Source: Patescibacteria group bacterium (lineage in GTDB: Bacteria; Patescibacteriota; Microgenomatia; JAMCZE01). Taken from it: a stretch of DNA of 42,748 nucleotides. A model generated the notes under the pieces. It made no database searches and was not told where the DNA came from. It saw only the letters and a program-made list of their open reading frames with translations. Location: NCBI GenBank assembly GCA_023485845.1, contig JAMCZE010000011.1:1-42748 (forward strand). Reading direction: 5' to 3'. Shown here one piece after another: positions 666 through 41,301 of the stretch. Every line of letters starts with the position of its first letter. Within the stretch, counting starts at the first letter, position 1. Both the position numbers and the translations under genes were made by a program.

Positions 666-2363
666 ATGGACAACGAGAAAATATTAGAAATAGTTCTCAA
701 AGCGCGGGATGAAGCCAGTAAAGTCATTGCCGGTGTAGGTGACCAGGTGGAAAAAAGTACCAAGCAAGTTATGGATTTGCAGTCGACCTTTAAGATCGCT
801 GGCGGGGTAATGTTGACGGCGGGTTTGGCTGGTATCGGAGCAATGAAGATGCTTGCCGACGCCGGAGCCGAACAGCAGGTAGCCATGGCCAGCGTAGAAG
901 CGACTTTGAAAAACGTCGCGGGCACGATCGGCAGTTTTGAGACGTTGAAGAAAACGACCGAAGATTTGGGAACCGCCTATATGAAGTTGGGCTTCGAAGA
1001 CGACGAAACTCAGCTGGCGTTTGCCCAGGATCTTCGGGTCACTAAAGACGTGGCTAACGCCAAGATAATGATGGCGACGGCAACCGATCTTGCCCGCCTC
1101 AAGCACATGTCCCTGGCTGAAGCCACGCAGATGCTCACCATGGCTTACGAGGGCAACCACCGAGCCCTGAAGACCCTTGGGATCGAGGTTGATGCCCATG
1201 CCAAAGGAATGGATACCATAAACGCGGTCGAGAAGGCAGCTTCCGGTCAAGCGGAGGCATTTTCGAAAACTTGGGAAGGGGCCACTGCCAGACTTGACGT
1301 CAATATCAAACAACTGAAGGAATCTCTGGGGGCCAGGCTGATTCCAAGCTTAACGGATTTTACAGAAAAAATCAGTGCCGTTATTGAACGATTAAACAAA
1401 CTCAGTCCGCAAACTTACGACACCATCATTAATGTTTTGAAATTTGGGACGGCTTTTGCCTTAGTTGGCGGCGCTATTCTTCTCTTCTTGGGGTTTCTTC
1501 CTGCTGTCGCGGCCGGTTTCGGCTTGATCTCCGGTGCTCTTTTACCGATTGCTTTGATTCTTGCCGGCGTGAGTGCCGCCGCCTTTCTCCTCTACAAAAA
1601 TTGGGACAATGTGACCAGAGCTTTCGAACAAGCCCGGCCCTATATTCAGACCGTTCTTGACCAGCTGTCAAAATTTTGGGTCGAAATCCAACCAAAACTG
1701 GAAGCCGCCTGGAACGCCATAAAAATTAAAATTGATGACCTGGCCAAGTTTATTAAGGACCATTGGGACCAGATAAAAATCGTCATAGAGATTGCTCTTG
1801 GAGTCATCATGACCTTCCTTATTGTCTGGTGGGAGCTATTTAAAACCGTTATCAAAGTTGCTCTCGACGCTATCTCCGGCAATTGGAAAGCTGTCTGGGA
1901 TGATATTAATGGCTTTTTTATTGGCGTTTGGGATGACATGAATGCCTTAACCGGCGGAAAGCTGGATGAAATCCTGAAAAATATCGAGAAATTCATTGGT
2001 GACGCCATTGCCAAATTTAAAAGCATGGCGGCGGGAATTACCAACGCCCTTCATGAGATCAAATTTCCTCATCTATCCATCGGCGAAGGCGATATTAATG
2101 TCGCCGGACACGACATTAAATATCCCAAACTGGACGTCCAGTGGTATGAACAAGGGGGTTATGTCCCCCAAACCGGTTTGGCCTATTTGCACCAAGGTGA
2201 ATTTGTCCTCTCCAGAGACATGCTGGAAGGACGAAAACCGGCGCCAACGTCTGCTTCTAATATTTACAAGCAACCAATAACGATCAATGCCAATGTTAAC
2301 AGCAATGTAGATATTAATTTGCTGGGCTACCGCCTGGCTTTTGCGTTACGTAATTCTAGATAA
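666..2363 (+). CDS. Phage tail tape measure protein
   Basis: 565 aa, coiled-coil N-terminus, hydrophobic central helices, tape-measure-like segment (ADAGAEQQVAMASVEATLKN...), followed by tail genes. Confidence 0.85.
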   Translation: MDNEKILEIVLKARDEASKVIAGVGDQVEKSTKQVMDLQSTFKIAGGVMLTAGLAGIGAMKMLADAGAEQQVAMASVEATLKNVAGTIGSFETLKKTTEDLGTAYMKLGFEDDETQLAFAQDLRVTKDVANAKIMMATATDLARLKHMSLAEATQMLTMAYEGNHRALKTLGIEVDAHAKGMDTINAVEKAASGQAEAFSKTWEGATARLDVNIKQLKESLGARLIPSLTDFTEKISAVIERLNKLSPQTYDTIINVLKFGTAFALVGGAILLFLGFLPAVAAGFGLISGALLPIALILAGVSAAAFLLYKNWDNVTRAFEQARPYIQTVLDQLSKFWVEIQPKLEAAWNAIKIKIDDLAKFIKDHWDQIKIVIEIALGVIMTFLIVWWELFKTVIKVALDAISGNWKAVWDDINGFFIGVWDDMNALTGGKLDEILKNIEKFIGDAIAKFKSMAAGITNALHEIKFPHLSIGEGDINVAGHDIKYPKLDVQWYEQGGYVPQTGLAYLHQGEFVLSRDMLEGRKPAPTSASNIYKQPITINANVNSNVDINLLGYRLAFALRNSR

Positions 2364-2366
2364 ACC

Positions 2367-3203
2367 ATGATTACCAGTGTCACTTTAGGAAATAACCAGC
2401 TGACCGGAGCGCAAGTTTTTTGTACGGCCATCAGAAACGCCGGCTTCCCGGGCGTGGCCTACACCCGGACCAAACGTGGCGGCTACCAGGGATCAAAACT
2501 AGTGACTCCCACTTTTGTCGGTTACAAAATCGAGCTAGAATGGAAAATTATCGGGGTTTCTTTCTCTGATCTGGCCACTCAACGGGAAAATTTTATTAAC
2601 GCTTTAGGTTTGGTTCATTCTCAAGGTTCGCAAACGCTGATCATCGCTAAATCCAATGGCATCCAGGTCCAGGCTGACGTTAAAGCCATTGATGTGACCG
2701 CTGATCTGGATACTGACAATCTTCTAGCCACCAATGTCCTGACGGAGATGGAAATAGAATATCCACTGCTTCAAAGTACCCAACAAAACTCCCAAGACGT
2801 CCTTATATTTAGCGGTGGTGGTGTAGGAGTGCCAATGAAGATTCCCATGGACATGTCCGTCGGCGGGACCAATCTGGTAACAATTACCAATAATGGCAAT
2901 TACGCTGCATATCCGGTATTCACTCTCGTGGGTAAGCTTACCAATCCGGCGTTTACGAATTTGACGACCGGAAAACAATTATCTTTGAACTACTCGCCGG
3001 CAGATAACACTCAGTCGATTGTCATCGACACTTACGCCCGGACCGTTCTCCTCCAGCCTTCAGGCAATAACGGCCGGCAGTATGTCAGCGGTGACTTTTG
3101 GACTATCGCCAAGGGGAACAATGTTTTACAGCTTGGCAATGCCAACCAATCAGATAGCGGCAAAGTGACCATAACCTGGCGCGATGCCTATTTAGGAATC
3201 TAA
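2367..3203 (+). CDS. Phage distal tail (Dit)-like protein
   Basis: 278 aa, directly downstream of tape measure; position and composition fit a Dit/tail-family protein. Confidence 0.6.
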   Translation: MITSVTLGNNQLTGAQVFCTAIRNAGFPGVAYTRTKRGGYQGSKLVTPTFVGYKIELEWKIIGVSFSDLATQRENFINALGLVHSQGSQTLIIAKSNGIQVQADVKAIDVTADLDTDNLLATNVLTEMEIEYPLLQSTQQNSQDVLIFSGGGVGVPMKIPMDMSVGGTNLVTITNNGNYAAYPVFTLVGKLTNPAFTNLTTGKQLSLNYSPADNTQSIVIDTYARTVLLQPSGNNGRQYVSGDFWTIAKGNNVLQLGNANQSDSGKVTITWRDAYLGI

Positions 3204-3207
3204 ACTT

Positions 3208-4263
3208 ATGTCAGCCAACATTACCGTCAAAATTCAAAATCCGGTCACCGACGACCTCTATGAACTGCCATTTTCGGCGATCAGTTATACCGAAGAGCTA
3301 AACGGCGGCAAGGATGCCCAATTCAGCTTCGATTTCATGGCTCTTGCCGATATTGCCAAAGCCTACAACACCAACCCGCTTTTCCTCCTGACCTCATCCT
3401 ACCGGGAAATTTGGGTAGAGATGAGCGGATCGAAGATATGGTACGGAGTCATTTCTGACTTTCATCTGACTAAAGACGCTCAAGGATTGTTTCAGTTAAA
3501 CGTTTATGGGCTGGACTTTTTCTCGCTTTTCCAAAAGAGGCGGACAAACAACTCGACTGTATTTACGTCTATCGATGCCGGGCAAATCGCTTGGTCACTG
3601 ATTAACACCAGCCAGCAAGCTGATTTACCCTATTCTGATTTGGGAATAACTCAGGGATCAATTCCGGCAAGCACCACCAGAACTATCGAATATAATTTTG
3701 CTGAAATCCGCCAGGCAATAATTGACTTGTCTAACGCCAAAGTTAAAAACGGCTTTGATTTTGATATCGACTTCACCAAAAAGTTCAATGTCTATTACCC
3801 TTATAAGGGGACAACGCGAAGTAACATCATTCTGGATGATAAGAATCTTCTCGGTTGGGCGGCCGTCAAAAATCTTTTAACAAACATTACCAATAAAGTT
3901 TATGTCGTCGGGAAAGGCATTAATAGCGACGTGGCCTATGTCTACGTTTCCGCCTCGTCTGATTACAGAAGTGCCTTTAAAGTCCTAGAGGATGCTGTTA
4001 GTGACAAAGCTCTGGACAGTCTGACTAACCTAACTGACGAAGCTAATATGTTCCTGGCATATAACCAGGCGCCGATTCTCACTTTGACCTTAAAACATCA
4101 CGGCGAAGATCCGGATATCACAACTTACGATCTTGGGGACATTATTTTTGTAACGATCCCGGAATTATCCCTCTCTCTTGCTTCCTTCCGCGTCAAAAAA
4201 CGCCAGGTCCAGATTGACGAAAACGGCAATATCTTGGTTGATGTCGATTTACAAACAATTTAA
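3208..4263 (+). CDS. Phage tail hub / tail-associated protein
   Basis: 351 aa, third in tail module order; beta-rich. Confidence 0.55.
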   Translation: MSANITVKIQNPVTDDLYELPFSAISYTEELNGGKDAQFSFDFMALADIAKAYNTNPLFLLTSSYREIWVEMSGSKIWYGVISDFHLTKDAQGLFQLNVYGLDFFSLFQKRRTNNSTVFTSIDAGQIAWSLINTSQQADLPYSDLGITQGSIPASTTRTIEYNFAEIRQAIIDLSNAKVKNGFDFDIDFTKKFNVYYPYKGTTRSNIILDDKNLLGWAAVKNLLTNITNKVYVVGKGINSDVAYVYVSASSDYRSAFKVLEDAVSDKALDSLTNLTDEANMFLAYNQAPILTLTLKHHGEDPDITTYDLGDIIFVTIPELSLSLASFRVKKRQVQIDENGNILVDVDLQTI

Positions 4264-4266
4264 CTT

Positions 4267-4494
4267 ATGGAAATGTGGAAGAAAATCATTAATGACATTC
4301 TGCGCCGGCTGGATGCGCTGGAAAATAACGTGGTGATTAAAAAGATTACGATTCCTTCTGATGGCTATTTGGTTTTAAAAGAAGTTACCAGTGATCCAAG
4401 TACGCCAAAAGAAGGCGAGATGTGGGTCAATAAAACTACCTGGCAAATAAAAGCCTGCATTAACGGCGTGATTAAAGTCTTCACTATCACCTGA
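4267..4494 (+). CDS. Small phage structural protein
   Basis: 75 aa ORF tightly packed in tail module. Confidence 0.55.
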   Translation: MEMWKKIINDILRRLDALENNVVIKKITIPSDGYLVLKEVTSDPSTPKEGEMWVNKTTWQIKACINGVIKVFTIT

Positions 4495-4499
4495 TTTTG

Positions 4500-4538
4500 T
4501 ATAAGAACCCGCACGCTCCTCAATACAATTAGATAGAT
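4500..4538 (+). promoter_or_regulatory. Phage promoter-like element, copy 2
   Basis: TATAAGAA-N16-TACAATTA with spacing to ATG identical to copy 1. Confidence 0.5.
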
Positions 4539-5402
4539 ATGATTAGAACCATTAGATCAGGCGGAACGGCCCATACGGAGGCGAGTGTTCTTCAGTTTGT
4601 CACCGACCTGCTGAAAGCCTCGGGTGTTTTGGACACAACTGGAACTCAATTCAAAGCCCAAGCACAAGCGTCACCTGATATGACGGCGCTAATAAATGTT
4701 GGTCGTGCCTATATTCTCAACTCCGGCGGAAACGGCTATCCCATTTATATGGATGCCTCGTCAAATGTCACCTTCGGGGCCAATTCCTCGGGTAACCCAC
4801 GAATTGATTCCGTAATTTTATACATTGACCTGTCCGCCTCCCCCAATGCCGATTCCTCTAATGTTGCTAAGCTAGCAGTGGTCCAGGGAACACCGGGGGC
4901 TTCTCCGAACCCGCCCAACACTTCTCAGATCCAGGCAGCTATTGGTGCGTCTAACCCTTATATAATTCTGGCCAACGTCACTGTGGCTTCCGGAGCAGTT
5001 CAAATTACCAACGGCAATATTGCTGACGTGAGAACCCAAATATCGTTCCGATCCGACGTTTTAAACCAGGACCAATGGGTGACGGTTAATGCAACAACCT
5101 CAACTACCACGTTGGATCTTTCTAAGGGCAAGAAATTTATCGTTAATTTGCAAACCGCAACTACAACCTTAGCCCTTCTTAACGTGCCTTTAAATTGCAA
5201 ATCAATTGTGGTCCGGCCGGTCCAGGATGCCACCGGAAGCCGGGTGCTGAACTGGTGGTCCGGATTGTCTTGGCCGGGTGGAACCGCGCCGACACTGACG
5301 ACAACGGCCAATAAAGCCGATGAGTACGGGATTAATTTCTTAACGGTGACTAATGATTCCACCAACACATCCGAGGGCTTTATCATTGGCCAAAGTATTT
5401 AA
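4539..5402 (+). CDS. Phage tail fibre / baseplate-like protein
   Basis: 287 aa, position in tail module, Ser/Thr/Asn-rich beta-type sequence. Confidence 0.5.
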   Translation: MIRTIRSGGTAHTEASVLQFVTDLLKASGVLDTTGTQFKAQAQASPDMTALINVGRAYILNSGGNGYPIYMDASSNVTFGANSSGNPRIDSVILYIDLSASPNADSSNVAKLAVVQGTPGASPNPPNTSQIQAAIGASNPYIILANVTVASGAVQITNGNIADVRTQISFRSDVLNQDQWVTVNATTSTTTLDLSKGKKFIVNLQTATTTLALLNVPLNCKSIVVRPVQDATGSRVLNWWSGLSWPGGTAPTLTTTANKADEYGINFLTVTNDSTNTSEGFIIGQSI

Positions 5403-5404
5403 AT

Positions 5405-6397
5405 ATGGATAATAATAAACTTTTTTCCAGAAACGAGCGACTGATTCTCCGGATGGTAAACTCTCCGGCCGTCAGGGAATATTTGGGCATTAAAGAAACT
5501 TATCCGATTGTTAAAGTTTCACCAAACAGCCTTCATTTTCTGGCTGATCAAAAAGATAATAAAGCAATTTGCCTCGCACGATTTTATTGTAACCAGGAGA
5601 TAGGCAGAATCTTTCTTCCGGTTCTTTCGCAATTAGAAATAGCCAACGAATATAGTGTTGTCCGGAATAACCCCTTTGAAGCGGGTTTGCATTTTGCCGG
5701 CATACAAAGAAACAACCGGATCTTCCCCACAATCTATTTAAAAGTCAGTCAATTCAGTGTTAACGGCAGCGATGGTGAGGTGGGTTGTGGCGGCGATCCC
5801 AACTTTTCCAACATGCACAATGCTTCAAACGGCGGTTGGACAAATCAAGCGGCTAATGCAGTGGCCCAATCAAATTTTGGGGTTGATCACACCGATAAAT
5901 ACTGGATAAAAAGACCTTTCGTTCCTTTTGACACTTCCGCTATTGGTGGCGGGAAAATTACGGCCGCTAAACTTTATCTTTATGTTAACGGAGCCAATCA
6001 TCAGTGGGGAGGATCTGGTTGTTTTGCTACCGTGGTCCAAACATCACAAGCGAATATTGCACTTCTAGCACTTTCTGACTATCCACTTTGTGGTTCTTCA
6101 GTTAACAATCCCACTGAAGGTAGTAACCAGCTGGCGCTGTCAACTATTGTTAGCCAGCAAAACAGCTATAACTACTGGACCCTTAATGCCACAGGCTTAA
6201 CTTGGATCAATGGTAAGGGAACGACCAAACTAGGACTACGTTGCGGCATTGATTACACGTCCAGTGACCCAGGCATGGGTGGCAATCAGGGAGAAAACTT
6301 CGTTTGGAATAACTCCTATTCAACCAGCAACAAACCTTACTTGGAAGTTACTTACACTCCAGCCGGTGGCGGGGCTTTTAATTTTCTGATTTTTTGA
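5405..6397 (+). CDS. Phage appendage protein, possibly DNRLRE/carbohydrate-binding-like
   Basis: 330 aa; C-terminal beta-sandwich-like region ending NKPYLEVTYTP. Confidence 0.45.
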   Translation: MDNNKLFSRNERLILRMVNSPAVREYLGIKETYPIVKVSPNSLHFLADQKDNKAICLARFYCNQEIGRIFLPVLSQLEIANEYSVVRNNPFEAGLHFAGIQRNNRIFPTIYLKVSQFSVNGSDGEVGCGGDPNFSNMHNASNGGWTNQAANAVAQSNFGVDHTDKYWIKRPFVPFDTSAIGGGKITAAKLYLYVNGANHQWGGSGCFATVVQTSQANIALLALSDYPLCGSSVNNPTEGSNQLALSTIVSQQNSYNYWTLNATGLTWINGKGTTKLGLRCGIDYTSSDPGMGGNQGENFVWNNSYSTSNKPYLEVTYTPAGGGAFNFLIF

Positions 6398-6398
6398 T

Positions 6399-6641
6399 AT
6401 GGCCAAAAACGGTGTTTGTTACAAAGATTTATATCTGGCACTTGAAGATCTCCGACGGGAGATGAACGGCAGATTTGACCGTATGGAAGATGTTTTTATC
6501 ACCTTCCACAAGGATGAGTTTGAACCTCTTCTCAACTGGAAGTCGGAATTGTCCGGAAAGTTAGCGGTTGCGGGAACCTTAGTTTTATTTGTCAGCTCAG
6601 CAATTTGGACATTTGTTTACGACAGAATTTGGGGGCGCTGA
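6399..6641 (+). CDS. Small membrane protein, XhlA/haemolysin-like lysis accessory
   Basis: 80 aa with one C-terminal TM helix just upstream of lysin. Confidence 0.45.
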   Translation: MAKNGVCYKDLYLALEDLRREMNGRFDRMEDVFITFHKDEFEPLLNWKSELSGKLAVAGTLVLFVSSAIWTFVYDRIWGR

Positions 6642-7510
6642 TGATTTCTGTACCAAATTATGCTCAAAGAGATGGCAAGTGGGGTAGTCTCACATTAGGA
6701 TCTAGTGGCCTTTCTGTGGCTTCTTACGGCTGTACTTCGGTTTGTTGCGCTGCTTGCTTAGGAATTGATCCAGCAACTTTTATAGACAAGATGAACAACA
6801 ACGCCGGCTACACCCCAGGCGGCCTTTTAATCTGGCAAATTGCGGCCAATCTTTTTAACGGTTCAGTCTCTAGGCATGATTGGTCAGAAAACCCTTCGGA
6901 TTTAGACTGGATAAAAAGTTTTCTTCAAAAAGGTTATCCCGTTATTCTCGAGACTCGTTTTCCTGGAAACTATAACGACGCTGAACGAAGCCTCACTTCC
7001 CATATGCACTTTGTCGTCTGTGTTGCTGACGACTTAACCATTAATGATCCCTGGTTTAACGATCAGGTGAAATTTACCGATAGGTACGGAGATCCGGCAC
7101 GATGGATTTATTCGGCGGTTTGCTTTAATAAGATCGTTGGCTCAAGCCAAAACCAAGTTACACTGGATGGTGACAAGTTTTCAGAGCTGGTCGATAAATC
7201 CACAAAATATGATGCTTTCGTGGCCGGCGGATACAAATCCATTGATGACATTAACAAAAAGCTTTCGGATTTAACTTCCCAAGTCCATGAGTACTCCATC
7301 AGCTTAGATACCGAAAAACAGCGTGCCGACAATCTCGATTCCTTCCTCGGTCAACTAGCAGAAATTCTTAATGTCCCAAAAGAACAATCACAAGTGCTAG
7401 CAACGATAAATGGAATGATCTCTTCAGCTGATTCAGTAGAGAAGTTTACTAAACAGATCTCAGATCTCCAAAGTGAATTAGCCAACGCTAATGGGTCGAT
7501 TAAAATCTAA
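6641..7510 (+). CDS. Phage lysin-like peptidase (C39-like), apparently frameshifted near its 3' end
   Basis: MISVPNYAQRDGKWGSLTLGSSGLSVASYGCTSVCCAACLG... with downstream H and N/D motifs (SHMHFVVCV, TINDPW); ATG at 6641 overlaps upstream stop. Confidence 0.7.
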   Translation: MISVPNYAQRDGKWGSLTLGSSGLSVASYGCTSVCCAACLGIDPATFIDKMNNNAGYTPGGLLIWQIAANLFNGSVSRHDWSENPSDLDWIKSFLQKGYPVILETRFPGNYNDAERSLTSHMHFVVCVADDLTINDPWFNDQVKFTDRYGDPARWIYSAVCFNKIVGSSQNQVTLDGDKFSELVDKSTKYDAFVAGGYKSIDDINKKLSDLTSQVHEYSISLDTEKQRADNLDSFLGQLAEILNVPKEQSQVLATINGMISSADSVEKFTKQISDLQSELANANGSIKI

Positions 7511-7665
7511 CAAAACAACTGCGGGATTCACAAACGGCATTACAAGATGCCACTAGCGCTAGGGATCAATCCGAAAAACAATACAAAGATTTATTAGCCA
7601 CAACTCCGGAACCGTTAATCCGAAAAAAATTTGCGAAATGGATTATAGAAATCTTCAGTGACTAG
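7506..7665 (+). pseudogene. C-terminal continuation of the lysin coiled coil in the -1 frame
   Basis: NLTKQLRDSQTALQDATSARDQSEKQYKDLLATTPEPLIRKKFAKWIIEIFSD* directly continues the coiled coil that stops at 7510. Confidence 0.6.
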
Positions 7666-7680
7666 AAGGGTGGTGAGAAT

Positions 7681-7902
7681 ATGGAATTAAAACCAGGTTA
7701 CCAGTCAACAGAATTTTACGTTACGCTAATTTCCCAAGCGATCGGGATATTGGCTTTAACGGGTGTCGTAATTCCCGACCAAATAGGGGAGTTGTCGAAA
7801 GCAATTATTACTATTATCGGAGCATTAATCTCCATCGTGCCGGCGGTCGTTTATATTTTTAACCGAACGTGGCTGAAATCAAAAGTCTCGGGAACAAATT
7901 AA
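7681..7902 (+). CDS. Phage holin-like protein
   Basis: 73 aa, two hydrophobic segments, next to lysin, good SD. Confidence 0.65.
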   Translation: MELKPGYQSTEFYVTLISQAIGILALTGVVIPDQIGELSKAIITIIGALISIVPAVVYIFNRTWLKSKVSGTN

Positions 7903-7905
7903 AAG

Positions 7906-8226
7906 TTATAGCTTGGAAGCCTTAGAAAGTTTCGCCAGTTTCGCCATGGCACTTTCTAGCTCTTCCATCAACTTTTGGTTTTGTTTAATCAAAGACGCTT
8001 TATCTGCCCGCAAATCGACGATGGTTTGGTCGGTTATCTTAAAATGCTCGTCAAATAACTTGTGGCCGTATTCCGTTTGTTTCTTTAACGCATCAATCTC
8101 GTCACGCAGTTTAGAATTGCGCCTCAAGTAATAAAAAATAAAGAATATAAGGGAAATACCAATGACCACAGTCAGCGCAAGAAGACCAACTGAGTCTAAG
8201 ATCATGTGGAGCTGTTCCGTACTCAC
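7906..8226 (-). CDS. Small membrane coiled-coil protein
   Basis: GTG start overlapping integrase stop; one TM then coiled coil. Confidence 0.55.
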   Translation of the reverse strand: MSTEQLHMILDSVGLLALTVVIGISLIFFIFYYLRRNSKLRDEIDALKKQTEYGHKLFDEHFKITDQTIVDLRADKASLIKQNQKLMEELESAMAKLAKLSKASKL

Positions 8227-9275
8227 CCCTTTATTTTATCAGGAGGTTTGTCTTCGTCAATCGCCTCAATGTCAATTCGGACTTTCCTGCCGTCCTTACT
8301 TCTTTTTTGGACATTGATATACACTTTCTGACGGTAGCGCTTCTCAGCCTTATAAAAGAAATCCAGAAACGATTGGATGATATCCACACCGCGTTTATGG
8401 GGCAGGGCTAATCGGTCGTTATCAATCATTTCCTGGACCGATTTCAAACTCATGTGGATGTATTTAGCGGTAGTATCCAGTCGCCGGTGGCCCATGGCTT
8501 TCTGGATTTTGAAAATAGAGACATCTTCATCGGCTTGTCTTGTGCCAAAGGAGTGCCGCAGACTATATGGCTGGAGATTCTCTCGAGTTGCCAGGGAAGG
8601 GAAATCCGGAGCCAGTCTTTTAATTCTTTTTTGGAAATCCTCCTGCCAGCTCATATCCTTCATATATGGGAGACCAGTGTTGTGAATTGGCGGAAATAGA
8701 TAGTCACCAATCATGATGTTATCAATGTAGTTTCTGACTTTATCACGAACAACAAAAGACATGGGGACAATCCGATTACCGGTTTTGCCACTGACGAGAA
8801 ATACATTTCTGCCAAAATCAGCGTCGCGTTTGCGCATTTTTACGGTCTCTCCCATGCGAAAACCGTGATAGGCATTAATTAGCCAAAACACTGTCCACAT
8901 CTCAAAGCGACGCCAATAAACACCATCTTTGGGATAAGGGTTAGTCAAACTGACAAAGGCTTCAACTTCTTCGTCGGACAAAATAGCCCGGATGTAATCG
9001 TCACGGTCTCTGCCTTTATAGAGTGGATATTCGATGAACTCGGGAACGGTAAAAACTTCGCCCCAATAATGCAAAACGACGATATATTGATTTATGTAGC
9101 TGGCGTCGCGACGTTTATCAATGAGATCGGTTATAAATTTGGAAAAGTTTGTAAGAGTTAAGGGGTCGACATCCTTGAGGATCCGGCGCATCAATTTTAG
9201 GTTGAATTGGACGGTGGTGGGCTGTAAAGCCTTATCACGCAAAAGAAACAGTCTTAATTGCTCTAGCTTATCCAT
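8223..9275 (-). CDS. Tyrosine recombinase / prophage integrase
   Basis: 350 aa; HGFRMGE, SLRHSFGT, GHRRLDTTAKYIH motifs (R-H-R-H-Y). Confidence 0.9.
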   Translation of the reverse strand: MDKLEQLRLFLLRDKALQPTTVQFNLKLMRRILKDVDPLTLTNFSKFITDLIDKRRDASYINQYIVVLHYWGEVFTVPEFIEYPLYKGRDRDDYIRAILSDEEVEAFVSLTNPYPKDGVYWRRFEMWTVFWLINAYHGFRMGETVKMRKRDADFGRNVFLVSGKTGNRIVPMSFVVRDKVRNYIDNIMIGDYLFPPIHNTGLPYMKDMSWQEDFQKRIKRLAPDFPSLATRENLQPYSLRHSFGTRQADEDVSIFKIQKAMGHRRLDTTAKYIHMSLKSVQEMIDNDRLALPHKRGVDIIQSFLDFFYKAEKRYRQKVYINVQKRSKDGRKVRIDIEAIDEDKPPDKIKG

Positions 9276-10091: not shown

Positions 10092-10180
10092 TTGTTCACA
10101 CTCCTTCCGGGCAGAAGAATTTTGGCAGCTGATAAATAACTTATAACGGAAATTATGGGAGAAAACAAGATAGCAATTGC

Positions 10181-10254
10181 GGATCCGGCCGGATTCGAAC
10201 CGGTGGTCTCGTCCGTGACAGGGACGCGTGTTAACCAAGCTACACCACGGATCC
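10181..10254 (-). tRNA. tRNA-Asp (GTC)
   Basis: Cloverleaf: acceptor GGATCCG/CGGATCC, anticodon loop CTGTCAC, T loop TTCGAAT. Confidence 0.95.
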
Positions 10255-27880: not shown

Positions 27881-30148
27881 ATGGAAAAAGTTGTCATCTG
27901 GTTTAAGGACATTAGAAAGGACGACACACTGCTGGTGGGCGGGAAGGGAGCCAACCTTGGGGAAATGGTTTCCATCAACATGCCGATCCCGCCGGGATTT
28001 GTGGTTAGTGCCGTCGCCTACCGGCACTTTTTGGAAGCTAACGGCTTAGATAAAAAGATTAAAGAGGCCCTGGCCGGTCTGGACACCAGCCAAGTAGAAA
28101 AAACTCAAGACGTCGCCGTGCATATTAAGAAATTAATCACCACTGCCCCTATTCCCAAAGAAATTTCCAAGCCAATTATCCAAGCCTATTTTGAATTAAA
28201 AAAGCCGCTGGTGGCCGTGCGCAGCAGTGCCACTTCGGAAGACTCGAAAGATGCTTCCTTTGCCGGCCAAAACGAAACCTTTCTCAACGTTTCCGGTGAG
28301 GCTAGTTTGGTGGATTTTGTTCGGCGCTGCTGGGCCTCGCTTTTTGAAGGTCGATCCATCTTTTATCGGCATCAGCGCCACATCGACCACCTGAAGGCGG
28401 AGATTGCCGTGGTGGTGCAAACCATGGTGGAATCCGACTCCTCCGGGATTATTTTTTCACTTGACCCGGTGACTAATAATAAAAACCGGATCATTATTGA
28501 ATCAATTTTTGGCTTGGGGGAATACATTGTCCAAGGAAAAATCACCCCGGACCACTATGAAGTCAATAAGCAGGACCTAAAAATTGTGGAAAAACAAATT
28601 GCCAAGCAGGAAATTATGCTGGTGCGGGACAAATCCGGCCGGGTTAAGCAAGTGAGAGTTGATCGCAGACGGCAAAATGTCCAAAAAATTTCCGACGATT
28701 TAATCGTCAGGTTTGCCCAACTGTCCAAGGATTTAGAAAAACACTATTACTTTCCTCAGGACAGTGAATTTGCCGTCCACCACGGTCAGGCTTATCTTGT
28801 CCAAACTAGGCCGATCACAACAACAAAATTGGACAAATTTGATCAATTTGTCAAATTAGATATGTCTCACAAAGTTATTCTCCTGGAAGGTGCCCCGGCC
28901 AGCCCGGGTATCAAATCGGGGCCGGTTAAAATTCTAGCCTCCGCCAAGGAGATTGATAAACTCAAAAGCGGGGAAGTGCTGGTGGCCCAGCAGACTAACC
29001 CGGACTATGTTCCGGCCATGAAGAAAGCGGGGGCAATCATCACCGACCGGGGCGGTCGCACCTCCCACGCGGCGATTGTTTCCCGGGAACTGGGTATTCC
29101 CTGCGTGGTGGGAACAGAAAAAGCCACAATGAGCCTTAAAGACGGGGAAGTGGTCACGGTCGACGGAACAGAGGGAAAAGTTTACAAAGGAGGCATCGAA
29201 ATAAAAACAGTAACACAGTCACACAATAAACCAATTAAAATAATGACGGATGAGCTAAAAACGGCAACTAAGGTTTACGTTAATTTGGCCGAGCCGGAAA
29301 AAGCCAAAGAGATTGCTGCGCTGGATTGTGATGGGGTGGGATTGTTGCGGGCGGAATTTATGCTGGCCGGCATCGGGATACATCCGAAAAAAATAATTGA
29401 AGAAAGAAAGCAAGAAGAATATGTTAACACCCTGGCGCAAAAGATGACCATGTTCGCCGAGGCTTTCTACCCGCGGCCAGTGGTCTATCGGGCGACCGAT
29501 TTTAAAACCAATGAGTACCGGTCACTTAAAGGCGGCGAAAAATATGAACCGGAAGAAGCCAATCCAATGTTAGGTTTTCGCGGCGCCTTCCGCTATATTG
29601 TCGAGCCAGAAGTTTTCAAAATGGAAATCGAGGCAATCAAGAAAGTGCGGGATGACAAAGGCTTCAAAAATCTATGGCTGATGATTCCGTTTTGCCGGAC
29701 AGTGTCGGAATTAGCGCGGGTGAAGTCCCACATTAACCTCTATGGCCTGCAGCGGTCCGCTAATTTCAAACTTTGGATGATGTGCGAAATTCCGGCCAAC
29801 GTCCTGCTGATTGAGGATTTTTTAAAAGTGGGCATTGACGGCATATCGATCGGTTCCAACGACCTAACCATGCTCACCTTGGGAGTGGACCGAGATAACG
29901 AAAACGTCGCCCGAGAGTATAACGAGTTGGACGAGGCGGTGCTCTGGAGTTTTGAGAGGGTTATCAAGGCTTGCCGCAAGGCCGATGTCACTTGCTCCAT
30001 GTGTGGCCAGGCCCCATCCGACTATCCCAAACTCACTGAGAAGCTAGTGGAATGGGGCATCACCTCTGTGTCCGTTAATCCCGACGTTATCGCCAAAACC
30101 CGCGACATCGTCTACCACGCGGAAAGAACACTTCTTACCAGCAAATAA
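27881..30148 (+). CDS. ppsA: Phosphoenolpyruvate synthase
   Basis: VGGKGANLGEM, VRSSATSEDS, GGRTSHAAIVSRELGIPCVVG, C-terminal SVNPDVI. Confidence 0.95.
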   Translation: MEKVVIWFKDIRKDDTLLVGGKGANLGEMVSINMPIPPGFVVSAVAYRHFLEANGLDKKIKEALAGLDTSQVEKTQDVAVHIKKLITTAPIPKEISKPIIQAYFELKKPLVAVRSSATSEDSKDASFAGQNETFLNVSGEASLVDFVRRCWASLFEGRSIFYRHQRHIDHLKAEIAVVVQTMVESDSSGIIFSLDPVTNNKNRIIIESIFGLGEYIVQGKITPDHYEVNKQDLKIVEKQIAKQEIMLVRDKSGRVKQVRVDRRRQNVQKISDDLIVRFAQLSKDLEKHYYFPQDSEFAVHHGQAYLVQTRPITTTKLDKFDQFVKLDMSHKVILLEGAPASPGIKSGPVKILASAKEIDKLKSGEVLVAQQTNPDYVPAMKKAGAIITDRGGRTSHAAIVSRELGIPCVVGTEKATMSLKDGEVVTVDGTEGKVYKGGIEIKTVTQSHNKPIKIMTDELKTATKVYVNLAEPEKAKEIAALDCDGVGLLRAEFMLAGIGIHPKKIIEERKQEEYVNTLAQKMTMFAEAFYPRPVVYRATDFKTNEYRSLKGGEKYEPEEANPMLGFRGAFRYIVEPEVFKMEIEAIKKVRDDKGFKNLWLMIPFCRTVSELARVKSHINLYGLQRSANFKLWMMCEIPANVLLIEDFLKVGIDGISIGSNDLTMLTLGVDRDNENVAREYNELDEAVLWSFERVIKACRKADVTCSMCGQAPSDYPKLTEKLVEWGITSVSVNPDVIAKTRDIVYHAERTLLTSK

Positions 30149-31690
30149 AGAGGAAGCAGGTTTTCTTAGGGACTTGTGGCTGGGGACTGGAGACTGGTTT
30201 AGGGGCTGGGGAATTTTGGATAACCGTTTCTGCCGCTGACACCGTGGCCACAGGAACAGAAACTGTTGTGGTTATTCCCTCCACCACCTTAAACTCCGTG
30301 TTTGTTATCGTTGTGGTGGTGGCCACGGTTTTGTCTTGGTTGTTAACCACCATCGGATTAAGAATGGGAAGCCAAGTATTGTTGGATAGGTAGACGATAT
30401 GTGGATCAGCAACGGTGTACGGCAGGATGATGGTGTAGGGATTGGTGGTGGGAGAGATGGGATAACCGTTAAAAGCCGAAGATACGTTAATCCGGAAGAT
30501 AGTGGTATCAAGGGGGTCAGTGGTGATCTGGACATGAAGATCAGATGGATCAGTGTTTGTTGTGGTCAGAACGGTTGCTCCGTTAGCAGAGGTGAGGCCA
30601 TTACCCAAACAATACTTGAAATATTGGGGACAGTTAGACGTATCTGGTTGGCTGCCATACCAGAAACTGTTGGTGTTGTAGGAGGATGGGGCGGTGTAGG
30701 ATCCATTGGTATCCTGGGCCCTAATGTAGAGGGTGTGCTTGGTGTTAGACTCCAGTCCTGACAGGGAGATATCATTACAGGAGAAGCCTTCAGACAGGGA
30801 GTTAAACTCCCCATCAGAAGGTTTACAATCCTTCCAGTTACTGGATGATGGGTCGTTACTGTCCAGGTTGTACTGGACATTAGCTATCTTGGTGACACTG
30901 TTAGGAGCATTCACCGTCCCGGCGACATTGAACTTATCCTGGAAGGTAGAAATATTTCCTGGAGCGTTACCTGACAGACTAATGGTGTGAGGGAAGTTGT
31001 AGATGATATATAGAGAATGTTGACTCCCTCCTGCGCCCCCAATTAATAAATCAGCACTGCCGTCACCATTAAGATCTAGCGGCAGGTTGACAAATGGACT
31101 TTGTGAAAGGCGGCTTGAGGCCGCTGCTCCATCATAGCGCCAGGTGTAGTTTCTTGGATCGGTTATGTTAATAGTATTCCCAGTAGTGCCGTCATAGAGC
31201 ATAAAGATTTTACGGCTGATGATATAGAATGACCCAGAGAGGGAACCATTAATTGGTGAGTTCCAACTGCTAATAGCCAGATCTAGACCCCCATCGTTGG
31301 TAAATTCCCCAGCATAAAGGGAATGAAAGCCTCCTAACCCATTAATTACCACTGTATAGTTGGAGGGAGTTGCCATATCAACTAGATTGCCTGTCCCTTC
31401 GTGTTTCCCCAAGAAATCTGGTAAATTCGTGATAATGGTTATATGTCCATTCCCTGCCGAGCCAGCATTGCCTACCACTAGAGCAGGTTTCCCGTCGTTA
31501 TTAAAATCAGCCACCACGACAGATCGCCCGAAGAAAATTAGGTTAGGGTCGCTGACTCCATCTAGTCGAAGGCTCCAATTACCACTATTAGCCATATCTA
31601 GAATATTACCGGTGCCACTCATGTGTTGACTCAAAATGCTGTCTCTGACAATATAGACAGACCCGGATAGTGAGCCAGATGGGACGCAGA
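30135..31690 (-). pseudogene. FG-GAP repeat surface protein, N-terminally truncated by element integration
   Basis: VADFNNDGKPALVVGNAG, LDLNGDGSADLLIGGAGG FG-GAP motifs; repeat phase broken upstream at recombinase overlap; C-terminus PKKTCFLFICW. Confidence 0.7.
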
Positions 31691-33249
31691 GGCAACAAAG
31701 CGTCCTTTTGTGTTGAATTGTCGGGCTTTTTTGTAAGTTCGAATTTTCCATTTTCCAAATCGTCAATTTTATCAACTTTCGGACGATTGGTTTCTTCTAC
31801 TGCTTCAGAGAGGATTTTGAAGGTCTTGGAGTAGGTGTAGCTTAGCTTTCCCTCATCAACTGTTAAGGTGGCAAAGATAAACCTGATTAAGGCTCTTTGT
31901 TCGTCTATCATGCCTTTATCCTTGGCTTTTAGGTATAGTTCTTTGGCTCTCTGGGAGAGTTCGTAGATATTTACCCCTAAGTTGATGTAGCCTGTGCTTG
32001 CCTGGGAATGCTTTTTTATTGATTCAGTTATTTCGTCTTTCTCGTCCGAGTATTGTTTGAGCTTTCTGCTGTAAAACTCTGGGGTAATCTTTTCGTCCAA
32101 CTTGTCATCGTATAACTTGTCCATCCGCTTCTGAACCGCCTCGTAGCGGGCTTCAAGCTCGCCAACAGTGTTGTTGTGGTATTCGACCTCGTCCTGGTGA
32201 CTTTCTTTAAGTGCCTTCTTAAGCCATCCGACTATACGGCTGTTTTTGATTTTCAAGGTTTCAAATCCTTCTAAAAGCTGGGCTTCGACTTCATGCTCTT
32301 TTACCCAGGTTGTCTGCGGGCATTCGTGATAATGATTGCAGTGACCGTAAATGTGACCCTTGGCTGTTTCAAAAGTGATTGAGTTGTGGCAGCCAGCGCA
32401 TTTAATCAGTCCTCGAAAGAGAAAATTGTGCTTGCGGTATTTAGGTGTAGTTCTGCTTTTGAGCATAGCTTGGACTTTATTAAATTGCTCGACGGTAATC
32501 AACGGTTGGTGTTTGCCTTCATACAAGTCATCGTTCCATTTAATTTTACCAATGTAGAAAGGTTCACGCAGCAGGGAATGTATTCGGCTGTGTGGAAGTT
32601 TGTGCCCTAACTGCGAACGCATGCCTTCAGCAAACATCTTTTTAGATAATCGTTTGGTTGAGTAATTGCCTGTAAGGTACAAATCAAACATTTTCCTTAC
32701 AAACGGCGCCGTATCCTCGTCGATGATATGAGTTTTGTGCCCAGTTTCGCCAATGGTTTTGTAGCCGTTTGGCGGCTTGGTTGGTAGCCATCCCTGGGCA
32801 ATCTTTTCTTTTTGCCCCTTCTTCACATTCTCTGAGAGGAGTCGGACATAGTATTCGGCTGTTGCCACCTTCACCCGCCACATAAACCACTCGTGGGAAC
32901 GAGAGGTGTTATGGAGAATACAGCCTTCTTTTGCCAGGTGGACTTGATGGTTCTCATTCTCAGTAATCCATAAATCAATAGTGGGAACATCAGCAAAGTT
33001 CCTAGTTAGTCGGTCAGTTGTCTCTACGATAATCGTGGGGATGTCGTGTTTGCGGACATAAGCGATCATCTCAATAAAGACTTTTCTTTGGGTTTTACCA
33101 GCTGCTGATTCGGAAATGGCAAAGACCTTGGCTACTTCTAGCCCTTGTTTGTCGGCATAATCCCTCAAAAACTTCTCCTGGGCTGGCAGAGAGTAACCTG
33201 TTTCTTCTTGTTCTTTGCTGCTTACTCGGCAGAATATGGCAGTTTTCAT
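31606..33249 (-). CDS. Large serine recombinase
   Basis: MKTAIFCRVSSKEQEETGYSLPAQ, TDRLTRN, zinc-ribbon CAGC...C, coiled coil; C-terminus runs into FG-GAP gene. Confidence 0.92.
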   Translation of the reverse strand: MKTAIFCRVSSKEQEETGYSLPAQEKFLRDYADKQGLEVAKVFAISESAAGKTQRKVFIEMIAYVRKHDIPTIIVETTDRLTRNFADVPTIDLWITENENHQVHLAKEGCILHNTSRSHEWFMWRVKVATAEYYVRLLSENVKKGQKEKIAQGWLPTKPPNGYKTIGETGHKTHIIDEDTAPFVRKMFDLYLTGNYSTKRLSKKMFAEGMRSQLGHKLPHSRIHSLLREPFYIGKIKWNDDLYEGKHQPLITVEQFNKVQAMLKSRTTPKYRKHNFLFRGLIKCAGCHNSITFETAKGHIYGHCNHYHECPQTTWVKEHEVEAQLLEGFETLKIKNSRIVGWLKKALKESHQDEVEYHNNTVGELEARYEAVQKRMDKLYDDKLDEKITPEFYSRKLKQYSDEKDEITESIKKHSQASTGYINLGVNIYELSQRAKELYLKAKDKGMIDEQRALIRFIFATLTVDEGKLSYTYSKTFKILSEAVEETNRPKVDKIDDLENGKFELTKKPDNSTQKDALLPLRPIWLTIRVCLYCQRQHFESTHEWHR

Positions 33250-34362: not shown

Positions 34363-34383
34363 AAGTCCCTATATAGTTACTAT
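34363..34383 (-). promoter_or_regulatory. Operator-like motif copy 1
   Basis: Minus strand ATAGTAACTATATAGGGACTT. Confidence 0.5.
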
Positions 34384-36395: not shown

Positions 36396-36427
36396 TTAAT
36401 TATCATTGTCATCGTTCAGCGATGAAA

Positions 36428-36448
36428 AAGTCCCTATGTAGTCATTAT
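36428..36448 (-). promoter_or_regulatory. Operator-like motif copy 2
   Basis: Minus strand ATAATGACTACATAGGGACTT; 18/21 match with copy 1. Confidence 0.5.
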
Positions 36449-36482
36449 ATAAAAATTGGCTCATAATTGGTAAAATAACCCT

Positions 36483-36612
36483 AACGACCTAAACCCTGTA
36501 AAGGGCATGGTTAAACAAGTCCTCGTGAGCAATAAGCTCTCCCTAGAGCGCTCACGAGGCTGTCTCCCGAAAGGGTGGCAGGTGGCGCAAGCCATCGCTG
36601 GGGGGAGCTTTT
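36483..36612 (+). ncRNA. Candidate structured small RNA
   Basis: Extended -10 TGGTAAAAT at 36468-36476; hairpins with GUAA, GAAA and GCAA tetraloops; 10-bp perfect stem 36521-30/36550-59; 3' GGGGGGAGCUUUUU complementary to an internal loop. Confidence 0.6.
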
Positions 36613-36620
36613 TGTTTGAT

Positions 36621-36649
36621 TTGACAATCTCCCCAAGCGAAGTTAACAT
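36621..36649 (+). promoter_or_regulatory. Promoter for downstream gene
   Basis: TTGACA-17 bp-TAACAT. Confidence 0.65.
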
Positions 36650-36698
36650 GCAACACCTCAAGGGTAATTATTAGTTTTGACCCGAGAGGAGATGAAAA

Positions 36699-37565
36699 AT
36701 GAATATGAAACATAAAAATAAATCTCGTTTTCTACCTGTTATTCTTCTCATTGCCTTGATTGCCGTCCTTGCTGTAGTTTTGGCTCCTCGTTTAGTCAGC
36801 CAATCAAAGGTTATTCAGACCTTACAATCCAATTCCAAGGACAAAGAGGTTTCTGAACTCCTGGCTGCTATGAGTGCCAATCCAAACAAGGAATCGGAGG
36901 AGTATAAAGTGCTGCGCCAGAAGTTTTGTCTTTTAACAGCCAGACCAGAGACGGAAAGAGCTAAGGCGGTAAACAACATCAGAGAGTTTTTGCATGGAGT
37001 TTACCCAGCCGTTAGTAAAGAATTTGAGCCAGAGTTTATCTGTAGTAGATTTAACGGTAAGCCTGATGATAGTGGGACCGATTATAACAACCCTGCAGTG
37101 GAGTTTTACGAAGCAGAAAACCATAGCTTCGAGATTGATCCTAAGACAAATTACATTCTTGGATTCGCAGAGGCGGAACGAAACAAGAGAAGCGACCCTT
37201 TACCCAACTATGACTACTCAGGAATTTACAGTAAACCAGAAGAGTTAAGGCAGGTTGCAGAGAGGTTTTTGGTTGACCACAGAGACATCTTGGGTGTCGA
37301 TATTACCAAGATGACTTATAAGTTCGAGGGAACAAAGCCTGGCAATTTCTTTATGTTCTGGGAAGACAAGAATGTCTCATCAACCAAAGAGCATGAGGTT
37401 TGCGGGGATGTTGATCAGAAGCGGGAGGGAGCATATAAAAACAATCAAGGAGTCTGGTGTATCAAGATGAAATCGACCAATTATCAGAGGGTCGATATCA
37501 CGATCACCAACGGCGGGCAGATTATAATCTATCGCAATAACATCAACGATCTTGATAAACTATAA
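36699..37565 (+). CDS. Membrane-anchored/secreted hypothetical protein
   Basis: 288 aa, N-terminal TM helix, SD GAGGAG. Confidence 0.75.
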   Translation: MNMKHKNKSRFLPVILLIALIAVLAVVLAPRLVSQSKVIQTLQSNSKDKEVSELLAAMSANPNKESEEYKVLRQKFCLLTARPETERAKAVNNIREFLHGVYPAVSKEFEPEFICSRFNGKPDDSGTDYNNPAVEFYEAENHSFEIDPKTNYILGFAEAERNKRSDPLPNYDYSGIYSKPEELRQVAERFLVDHRDILGVDITKMTYKFEGTKPGNFFMFWEDKNVSSTKEHEVCGDVDQKREGAYKNNQGVWCIKMKSTNYQRVDITITNGGQIIIYRNNINDLDKL

Positions 37566-38331: not shown

Positions 38332-41301
38332 TTATTGCTTTAGGTATTTCTGATCTCTCTTTTGAAAAGCTGGTAGAGTTCCCTCAAGAACATCTAATAT
38401 CTTTTTGTTCGTAGTGGGATTTTCTATGCTACCAGAACTGTATCGTATTTCATAAGTATGTTTGTCCATTTCAGAGCTAATTATTTGCTCGGCGTCACAA
38501 ACTACAGCAAGATTCGGATTGTGTGTAACGATGATAATTTGTCGTTCTTTCTTAGCCTGTTTAATATAAGGGACTAATAGAGTGAAGACAGATTCATTAT
38601 CCAAGTTCTCCTCTGGTTGGTCAATAATAAGAGGAATTTTATCTTTGTCGATTAGTAGGTAAAAAATAAGCAGAAGTGCCCCAATTTCTCCAGGGGAAAA
38701 CTCATTTTCGTTAAGATCTTTACCGTTGAAAGTAATATTGTATTTAACTTCTAGGTAACTTAACCCGTGTAGGTAGTTGTAAAACTCAAGTTTTTTACCA
38801 TCACTTTTAATAAGTTGTTCATCAAGTAATTTGGCAGGGCTGCCTTTAACTGATTTATCCGCTTTAAGGCAATTAATGAGTTCTTGGATAAAGTGTATTA
38901 TTCCGTCTTTTGTTTTGAGATCACTAATGGCTATGGTTTCCCTAACTCTAGTCAAACCTTCGGTTTTTCCCTGGAAACTGCCATCTCTGCTTTGGTCAAT
39001 AAAGGATAGGAAATCTGGAGCAAAGTTGAGTTTGTCAAAGACGATTCCGACATTGAAATCAAGAACGCTCCCAGTTTTCAGCTGTTTTTCTTTTTTGTCT
39101 TTGATAATCTTACCAAGAGGAGCATATATTTCGTTATAAAACGAGATCTTCTTGTTTAGTTCGTCATAAACCTGTCCTACATACTTGTCTCTTTCTGCTT
39201 GAGTAGACTCGATATCTTTATCTAATTTTTCCTGAACATATTTTATTTCGTTGGTTAAGGATTGAATTGTTGCTAGATTAGTGTCTTCGTTAGTTCCTTC
39301 AATTTCTGCTTTTTTATTCTGGTATGCCTTCAGTGTTTTTTGATACTCACGGTAGGTGTTATTTTCTTTATCGAGACCGTCGTAGATTTTCTTAAGCTCG
39401 CTTTGTATGTTTTTCTTTTTTACAACTAGACTGTTTTTATCGTTGCCTTCCGTTGAGAGTAGGGCGGTTAATTTCTCTCTTTCTGTATTTAGGAGACCTC
39501 TCTTTCTGACAATAATATCTTTATCAATTTTTATGTTGATTAATTTTTGTGTGTCTATTTCGAGAAGCTTTAAGTCTTCTTCATGATTGGCTAGGAACTC
39601 CTCAAACTGTCTCTGAAGGCTTCCTAGTGCGATTTCAAGATTTTGTAGTTTAGTTGTGCGTTGGTTGACGCTTTTAAGTTCCTGTTGTTTTTCTCCGATT
39701 TGTTTTTCGACTTCTTCTAACGAAGTGTTAAATGTAGTAATTTTTTCCTCAATTTCTTTTGAAGGTTTACTTTTAGGTTCAGCGACTTTTTTAGGTTCGA
39801 CTAACCCCTTGAGCTCTCGTTGTTTTTCAGCCAATTTGCGTTTTAATAGTTCAAGATATGAAGGAAGCTTCTTGTCTTCTAGTCCACAAATTAACTCATT
39901 CTGTTCAGATACTCTCTGTCGGAAGGTTTCGATATTTCGGTCTATTAGTCCAGTTTTTAGTCTGATTAAATCTTTTAAGTTGATCGTGTCGTCTCTGCTT
40001 TCTTCGGGAACATAGGAAAAAATAACTTTATCAATTTCTTGCTGAAACAGGCTAATACCGCTTTCGTTGCAGATGGTCTCGACAAATTTTTGAGGTAGGT
40101 ATTTTACCTGCTCTGGTTCTGTGTCTGTGTTTACCTGGTCATTGAGATTGCATTTAACGGCAATTCCGTCACACCAAGTCAACACTGCTTCATATTGTCT
40201 TGCCAAGCCCTTTTTTCTGAATTTGTCATCTCTTAGGAAGGAGTAGTTATCAGGTGCTGTATGGCTTTTTCCAGCTAGGGCAATAGAGTCAGCTTTTGCG
40301 CTTTTTCCACTGCCTTTTTTGCCAATGATAGCCACCAAACCAGGGTTAATGGGTGTTTCATTATTAAACCATGCGTGTTGTTGTGTACTATCAGTTGGTT
40401 TCAGGGTTATGGAGTCAATGTAATGAGATTTATTGCATTCAATATCAATCAGTTTGGGAGGGATTTTACCGATGAATATTCTGTCCTCTGCTTCATTTAC
40501 GACCTGCCTTAAACCCTCGAAAGTTGGATCCGACTTAATCCAGCAACATTTCTCACAAGGCTGAGTTTTATCATCTCTCAATGAGCCGATCGGGTAAGTA
40601 TGTTCATGAGAGTCGCTACCCTTGAGGCACGGTTTCTTGTCTTTAAACCACTTACGAAACTGATCTTCTTTAATTGCATCGTCTTTCCAAAGAAAGAAAT
40701 CGATTTGTTTTGGGTTAGATGACCCAATGAAATGGGAATCGTTAATGAGACCCTGCTTAAACCATTGGTCGTTTACTGGATCTATGTTATCAATGCCTCC
40801 ATATTCATCATAAGGCATCCAAATTAGATATTTTCCCCTGAAGGCAGTATCTGACTCTAGCGCACCCACAATAGAGTTAAAGTCGACTGCTACCTTTTCA
40901 TACAGAAACTGGCTATCCGTATATTTACTTGAAATTTTTGTTCCATTGACGGTAAGAGATTTCAAGAAGTTTTCTATATCCGTAACATCAATCTCGTTGC
41001 TGAAAATGATATGGAAGTTTATCCTTTGCCCGTTTTTCGAGTTTTTATTGAGAAGGGCATTAAGCATTCTAAACTCGACAACGGGTAACACGATTTTACT
41101 TGAGTCGGGCTTTCTGGTTATAAATTGCTTGTATCCCTCGACAGAGCAGTAGTCATTGATGCCGATGACATCACAATCTGAGTTTTCGACCTGGTTGATG
41201 AATTGATCGTATGTCCCTTTATAGCTGTATGAGGCTGGACTGTGGACATGTAAATCCCACTTTCGCCAAATTGAGCCTCTTGGATCATTTGTTATTTTCA
41301 T
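38332..41301 (-). CDS. PHP-domain plus SMC/RecN-like ATPase (TrlF-like)
   Basis: PHP: DLHVHSPAS, GINDYC, GSDSHEHTYPIG; Walker A GKKGSGKS; signature FSPGEIGALLL; Walker B IPLIIDQPEENLDN; H-loop THNPN; long coiled coil. Confidence 0.88.
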   Translation of the reverse strand: MKITNDPRGSIWRKWDLHVHSPASYSYKGTYDQFINQVENSDCDVIGINDYCSVEGYKQFITRKPDSSKIVLPVVEFRMLNALLNKNSKNGQRINFHIIFSNEIDVTDIENFLKSLTVNGTKISSKYTDSQFLYEKVAVDFNSIVGALESDTAFRGKYLIWMPYDEYGGIDNIDPVNDQWFKQGLINDSHFIGSSNPKQIDFFLWKDDAIKEDQFRKWFKDKKPCLKGSDSHEHTYPIGSLRDDKTQPCEKCCWIKSDPTFEGLRQVVNEAEDRIFIGKIPPKLIDIECNKSHYIDSITLKPTDSTQQHAWFNNETPINPGLVAIIGKKGSGKSAKADSIALAGKSHTAPDNYSFLRDDKFRKKGLARQYEAVLTWCDGIAVKCNLNDQVNTDTEPEQVKYLPQKFVETICNESGISLFQQEIDKVIFSYVPEESRDDTINLKDLIRLKTGLIDRNIETFRQRVSEQNELICGLEDKKLPSYLELLKRKLAEKQRELKGLVEPKKVAEPKSKPSKEIEEKITTFNTSLEEVEKQIGEKQQELKSVNQRTTKLQNLEIALGSLQRQFEEFLANHEEDLKLLEIDTQKLINIKIDKDIIVRKRGLLNTEREKLTALLSTEGNDKNSLVVKKKNIQSELKKIYDGLDKENNTYREYQKTLKAYQNKKAEIEGTNEDTNLATIQSLTNEIKYVQEKLDKDIESTQAERDKYVGQVYDELNKKISFYNEIYAPLGKIIKDKKEKQLKTGSVLDFNVGIVFDKLNFAPDFLSFIDQSRDGSFQGKTEGLTRVRETIAISDLKTKDGIIHFIQELINCLKADKSVKGSPAKLLDEQLIKSDGKKLEFYNYLHGLSYLEVKYNITFNGKDLNENEFSPGEIGALLLIFYLLIDKDKIPLIIDQPEENLDNESVFTLLVPYIKQAKKERQIIIVTHNPNLAVVCDAEQIISSEMDKHTYEIRYSSGSIENPTTNKKILDVLEGTLPAFQKRDQKYLKQ

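Follow-up and report, generated by a model that had tools for sequence, protein, structure and literature searches.

LOOT RNA as a candidate two-state 5′ leader of cargo genes in mobile elements of Patescibacteria

The stretch of DNA analysed here (the window, 42,748 nt of contig JAMCZE010000011.1 from a Patescibacteria group bacterium) contains a large serine recombinase gene and, on the opposite strand, a compact structured RNA followed by an open reading frame (ORF). An earlier note on this DNA had proposed a novel, independent small RNA at this site, and each sequence element that it described was found where it had been placed. The features of the locus are as follows.

31606-33249, - strand: large serine recombinase (Resolvase, Recombinase, Zn_ribbon_recom).
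36468-36476, + strand: extended -10 promoter-like site TGGTAAAAT, seen in the sequence, with family-wide promoter-like enrichment upstream of LOOT.
36486-36596, + strand: LOOT core, RF03000 model positions 1-121 (79.2 bits, E 2e-13).
36486-36512, + strand: P1 and the P2 hairpin, CCUAAAC...GCAUGG, the best-conserved part by model alignment and conservation.
36486-36489 with 36509-36512, + strand: the strands of P1.
36494-36497 and 36502-36505, + strand: the strands of P2, with loop GUAA (CCCU-GUAA-AGGG, 36494-36505).
36521-36530, + strand: P3a, the 5′ strand of the hypervariable helix P3, CCUCGUGAGC.
Between 36530 and 36550, + strand: AAUAAGCUCUCCCUAGAGC, enclosed by the P3a and P3b strands.
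36534-36546, + strand: a1, AAGCUCUCCCUAG, at the apex of P3, which pairs with the tail in the pseudoknot.
36550-36559, + strand: P3b, the 3′ strand of P3, GCUCACGAGG.
36560-36581, + strand: P4 hairpin, CUGUCUCCC-GAAA-GGGUGGCAG, from the model alignment.
36582-36596, + strand: P5 hairpin, GUGGC-GCAA-GCCAU (36582-36595), from the model alignment.
36598-36610, + strand: a2, the 3′ tail CUGGGGGGAGCUU, which pairs with a1 and lies outside the Rfam model.
36609-36617, + strand: U-rich, terminator-like stretch UUUUUGUUU, with UUUGUUU directly 3′ of the tail (sequence, family T frequencies).
36621-36649, + strand: promoter-like TTGACA (36621-36626), 17 nt, TAACAT (36644-36649), kept in 9 loci of the window's clade.
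36628-36635, + strand: a3, UCUCCCCA, a second possible partner of a2 in an alternative hairpin (family own versus swapped z = 10.5).
36699-37565, + strand: downstream cargo ORF of 288 aa with a hydrophobic N-terminus.

A cmscan search against Rfam 15 returned LOOT RNA (RF03000) as the sole match over 36400-36700 at E <= 1, with the full model length covered and a score far above the gathering cutoff of 46.4 bits. The RNA at 36486-36596 belongs to the LOOT RNA family. The novelty claimed for it was thus ruled out by the Rfam scan, a check that the earlier note had itself named as able to refute the claim. The earlier note did not recognise the RNA as tmRNA, RNase P, SRP or 6S RNA, and neither these nor any other Rfam RNA matched this interval at E <= 1. 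In the covariance-model alignment and family comparison, the window copy displays the conserved P1/P2 element, a variable P3 and GNRA-capped P4 and P5, and the hairpins reported previously correspond to P2 (GUAA loop), P3, P4 (GAAA) and P5 (GCAA). The structured nature of the RNA was confirmed by a predicted fold of -62.6 kcal/mol (z = -4.5), which none of 200 shuffles equalled. LOOT RNA derives from Zasha Weinberg's data (PMC7779021). It is filed by Rfam under the type 'Gene; sRNA' and not as a leader, and a literature search found neither a functional study of LOOT nor an assigned function.

The location in a mobile element, also part of the earlier reading, agrees with the serine recombinase gene listed above. 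A search for the element ends in the window found no clean direct repeat. The reading frame of an FG-GAP repeat protein (30135-31775) runs into the end of the recombinase gene and is possibly a host gene cut by insertion of the element. A 21-nt imperfect direct repeat, AAGTCCCTATRTAGTYAYTAT, occurs at 34363-34383, among other element genes, and at 36428-36448, just upstream of the LOOT promoter; it is a possible shared regulatory site. At 38332-41301 lies a gene for a 989-aa protein with a PHP-like start and an SMC/AAA ATPase region at its end, with PADLOC matches to Ppl, mad3 and others, which is likely a phage-defence ATPase. Separate from the LOOT element, a prophage-like tail module (tape measure, distal tail and minor tail proteins) occupies 666-9275. 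It is closed by a tyrosine integrase (8223-9275) near tRNA-Asp (10179-10254), which suggests integration at this tRNA gene.

In the window's phylum, 64 of the 287 genomes sampled carry LOOT, up to five copies each; in its class the count is 54 of 374, and all 14 control genomes lacked it. A strict DNA pattern run over 84,980 prokaryote genomes gave 28 records, all from CPR/Patescibacteria or from MAGs labelled 'bacterium', and six IMG/VR viral contigs carry LOOT. The RNA sits in serine-recombinase elements of Patescibacteria. Across 20 genomes (roughly 20 Mb), the serine recombinase domain PF07508 occurs 57 times, so that ~6% of 20-kb stretches would be expected to contain one; 25 of the 33 LOOTs in these genomes have it within 10 kb. 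In several genomes, inspection of the sequence by eye showed phage terminase-like genes near LOOT. LOOTs may also be clustered, with three in ~9 kb at one site, each with a different P3, and three pattern matches in 3 kb at another. On two contigs of one genome, LOOT copies lie exactly at the contig ends, which might reflect a multi-copy repeat, either LOOT or the sequence around it, interrupting the assembly.

The arrangement of the neighbouring genes is consistent across loci. The next downstream gene lies on the LOOT strand in 67 of 72 loci (93%, p = 6e-15; some of the loci are not independent, being related by descent), compared to 29 of 72 for the upstream gene. In 142 of 158 loci, the distance from P3 to the start of an ORF is 62-200 nt, with an interquartile range of 84-105 nt; the ORFs are naive calls of at least 50 codons from the first in-frame ATG. 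The set of 158 was collected by a finder that accepted only LOOTs with an identifiable P3 and with GAAA as the P4 loop, and it is therefore biased to canonical LOOTs. A co-directional, closely following gene is the signature of a 5′ leader. The proteins encoded behind LOOT include staphylococcal-nuclease-like proteins, zinc-ribbon membrane proteins, DNA methyltransferases, trypsin-like proteins and defence proteins; as the led genes differ so widely, the shared part is the leader and not the product.

In the window, the ATG of the 36699-37565 ORF, which has no Pfam or PHROGs match, is preceded by a Shine-Dalgarno-like GAGAGGAG. Family-wide, a Shine-Dalgarno sequence of at least 5 nt precedes 21% of LOOT-led genes versus 11-12% of other genes at the same loci. 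The proposal that LOOT replaces the Shine-Dalgarno sequence was rejected, since led genes are not poorer in it than their neighbours, and an unusual initiation route gains no support.

Of 144 loci, 52 have strong -35/-10 pairs upstream of LOOT (16 expected from shuffles), and 13 have them between LOOT and the ATG (3.9 expected); nine of these 13 belong to the window's clade. The motif ACAAYT lies just upstream of LOOT in 90 of 158 (4 expected). In six genomes, LOOT is preceded on the same strand by a small MerR/HTH_17 excisionase-like gene whose end lies 22-27 nt away. Both promoter-like sites described previously are present in the window, namely TGGTAAAAT ahead of the RNA and the TTGACA-17-TAACAT site before the next gene, the latter conserved as TTGACW-N17/18-TAAYAT after LOOT in the nine loci of the clade.

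The further claim, that LOOT is an independent RNA gene, is doubtful. Such a gene would encode a trans-acting small RNA with its own promoter, body and 3′ pseudoknot or terminator, and the gene behind it would use a promoter of its own. The Rfam type, the promoter-like sites upstream, the U-rich stretch directly after the tail and the conserved second site of the window's clade all agree with this. However, the downstream gene is closely spaced and nearly always co-directional, and most loci have no promoter-like pair between LOOT and the gene. Taken together, strand, spacing and promoter pattern favour a portable 5′ leader over a free-standing sRNA gene, an alternative that appears unlikely though not negligible. 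In most of the family LOOT is probably a cis-acting leader. The leader role of the window's own copy would follow from that of the family; there, the second promoter-like site may serve the downstream gene, and its conservation makes a separate short RNA a fair alternative for this copy.

The P3 helix is hypervariable, with ~135 distinct helices in 158 LOOTs and all four Watson-Crick pairs at every position counted. G-U pairs account for 5 of 1232-1244 pairs (0.4%), however G-U was scored in finding P3, compared to 20-24% in P4, P5 and the pseudoknot. The 5′ strand of P3 recurs over 8-13 nt between LOOT and the gene (P3a′) in 26 of 158 loci, and most of these repeats end 0-9 nt before an ATG. 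Expectations drawn from foreign leaders were 1.03 for repeats of at least 8 nt (26 observed) and 0.35 for at least 9 nt (23 observed). Repeats upstream (1 versus 0.8 expected) or in antisense (1 versus 0.8) are at chance, and the reversed sequence shows nothing. The repeat-bearing loci have 24 different P3 sequences, which indicates that the repeat arose many times. Seven of ten repeat-bearing cargo genes scanned have DNA methyltransferase or GmrSD restriction domains, and defence matches were found as well. In three loci the cargo gene behind LOOT has early stop codons although the P3 repeat ahead of its ATG is still complete, which suggests that the cargo is decaying faster than the leader.

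Given a repeat of P3a before the ATG, the 3′ strand of P3 has two possible partners, P3a and the start site. In predicted energies that leave the pseudoknot uncounted, the P3-closed and start-site folds differ by a median of 1.9 kcal/mol, and the start-site fold is at least as good in 9 of 26 loci; P4, P5 and the a2:a3 hairpin are predicted to be nested inside the start-site helix. Sequestration of the start site would appear to be a real mechanism in the repeat-bearing subset, with reasonable though not high confidence. The repeat is missing in ~84% of loci, window included, with no weak residue there; a weakened repeat in all loci was rejected, as the distribution is bimodal. The window P3a, CCUCGUGAGC, has no second copy ahead of the downstream ATG, and its single occurrence elsewhere in its own genome is what chance gives (1-2 expected). 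A role for P3 as an address acting in trans was likewise rejected, with copies within ~10 kb about at chance apart from the start site and this single occurrence outside LOOT in the window's genome. The specificity of the repeat for the downstream ATG, at about chance elsewhere nearby, also speaks against a free-standing sRNA gene.

The scarcity of G-U pairs might instead point to a feature of the DNA, in which P3 and its repeat form inverted and direct repeats for a recombinase or DNA-binding protein, or are kept perfect by template-switch repair, with no role for RNA pairing. The contrast between 0.4% and 20-24% would be expected if identity rather than RNA pairing is kept. This explanation is very improbable: P3a, P3b and a1 are parts of a conserved RNA structure in which GNRA and UUCG loops replace one another, the repeat is located at the start codon, and the LOOTs of one genome mostly differ in P3, so that one shared protein could not easily read them all.

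The Rfam model of LOOT ends before the 3′ tail, at 36596 in the window, and includes neither the pairing of the tail with a1 nor a3. The sequence adjoining this end is GCUGGGGGGAGCUUUUUGUUU, and its G-rich part pairs with AAGCUCUCCC in P3. The earlier note had proposed that the tail, GGGGGGAGCUU, pairs with AAGCUCUCCC (36534-36543) inside the hairpin now recognised as P3. This pairing is real and extends to 13 bp with AAGCUCUCCCUAG. The same place 3′ of P5 pairs with the P3 loop in 72 LOOTs, and then in 158 distinct ones, despite their differing sequences; the helix has at least 7 bp in 92% of the 158, with a median of 12 bp. Own tails score 25.4 against 15.5 +/- 0.3 for swapped tails (z = 32; 158 LOOTs), with no overlap in 2000 permutations. 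The covariation check suggested at the outset was also positive, with compensatory changes on both sides at 10 of 11 a1:a2 pairs in an alignment of 40 diverse sequences, although its register was picked by complementarity, which favours the percentage paired. None of 500 shuffles reached any of five covariation measures, and slid registers failed. The swapped-tail permutation is the fairer test, because all registers were searched for foreign tails too. Tail pairing across the LOOT family is on this comparative evidence nearly certain. As a1 lies within P3 and a2 outside it, the pairing forms a pseudoknot if P3 is closed, and this pseudoknot is an addition relative to the Rfam model, to which the claim is limited.

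The a1:a2 pairing has two competitors. One is a small inner P3 hairpin, and the other is a3, whose complementarity to a2 is enriched family-wide by the own-versus-swapped comparison. A tie between a3 and the start-site repeat was rejected, as no association was found and a3 is not commoner in repeat-bearing loci. The window a3 (UCUCCCCA) lies between TTGACA and TAACAT, in the spacer of that promoter-like site. The near-universal a1:a2 pairing with U-rich sequence directly after it, and the competition of the inner hairpin and a2 for a1, could describe a transcription attenuator or antiterminator. In that scheme the pseudoknot and U stretch would stop the polymerase unless a factor, the inner P3 hairpin or a3 captured a2, and pairing of P3 with the start site would be secondary. 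The U stretch is, however, short and broken by G (family T frequencies 0.47, 0.78, 0.83, 0.69, 0.51, 0.74 ...), and attenuation leaves the P3a′ repeats and P3's lack of G-U unexplained. An attenuator is therefore considered improbable.

The reading preferred here, by a modest degree of belief, is that LOOT may be a two-state 5′ leader that controls how cargo genes of CPR mobile elements are expressed. Transcription by RNA polymerase would begin just upstream, and P1/P2, P3, P4 and P5 would be made in turn, followed by the tail. In state I, P3 would be closed and loop a1 paired with tail a2, giving a pseudoknot followed at once by the U-rich stretch. In state II, a2 would pair with a3 further downstream; in repeat-bearing relatives, P3b would also leave P3a for the identical P3a′ before the start codon, hiding the start site. 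The balance of the two states would set the amount of cargo protein. The switching itself, the state that is on and the trigger form the part of the model that we infer. P3a′ is absent in the window, so only the choice between a1:a2 and a2:a3 could apply there. A more speculative extension, held as possible at best, is that LOOT might be a widespread 'self-addressed' switch of CPR mobile elements. This would be a portable leader in which the strictly Watson-Crick, hypervariable P3 serves as an address matching the start site of the cargo gene behind it. A genome could then hold many LOOTs acting side by side with no cross-talk, and rewriting P3 would bring new defence genes under control.

On this reading LOOT, so far named without a role, gains a place as the putative leader of mobile cargo genes (restriction-modification, secreted and membrane proteins) in CPR bacteria. 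It also gains an extended structure, the tail pseudoknot, and a testable mechanism in the loop-tail and start-site pairings. If true, mobile elements of the host-dependent CPR bacteria would commonly use such leaders to keep risky cargo, for example restriction enzymes, under control. A helix that is hypervariable yet strictly pairing, as P3 is, constitutes an unusual evolutionary signature.

Compared with known systems, the window copy is a member of RF03000, with which it shares the P1-P5 architecture, the sequence and the covariance score. The hok mRNA of plasmid R1 adopts metastable, mutually exclusive folds in which a strand near the start site can swap partners. A partner-swapping start-site strand within one mRNA is also what is proposed for LOOT; hok has no homology to LOOT, and processing or 3′-to-5′ locking belongs to the hok side and was not seen for LOOT. 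The ORFs downstream of LOOT are mostly large and diverse, with no antisense P3 enrichment near the loci, which is not the pattern of a type I toxin-antitoxin system of the hok or timP type. ROOL and GOLLD are structured, oligomeric RNAs often linked to phages or mobile elements, with no role assigned; we know of no leader-like position for them. They resemble LOOT in their phage and mobile-element ties, but are far larger, and their oligomeric structures have been described (PMC12286853). The closest experimentally described parallel encountered for LOOT is the leader of the timP mRNA, of a type I toxin-antitoxin system. Originally catalogued as the noncoding RNA RyfA, timP proved to be an mRNA; its leader is proposed to take up mutually exclusive folds that decide translation, and the active fold contains a pseudoknot (PMC11228461). 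The timP sequence is unrelated to LOOT, and its system comprises a small toxin and a separate antisense RNA, whereas LOOT, with no antisense partner found near its loci, precedes many unrelated cargo genes.
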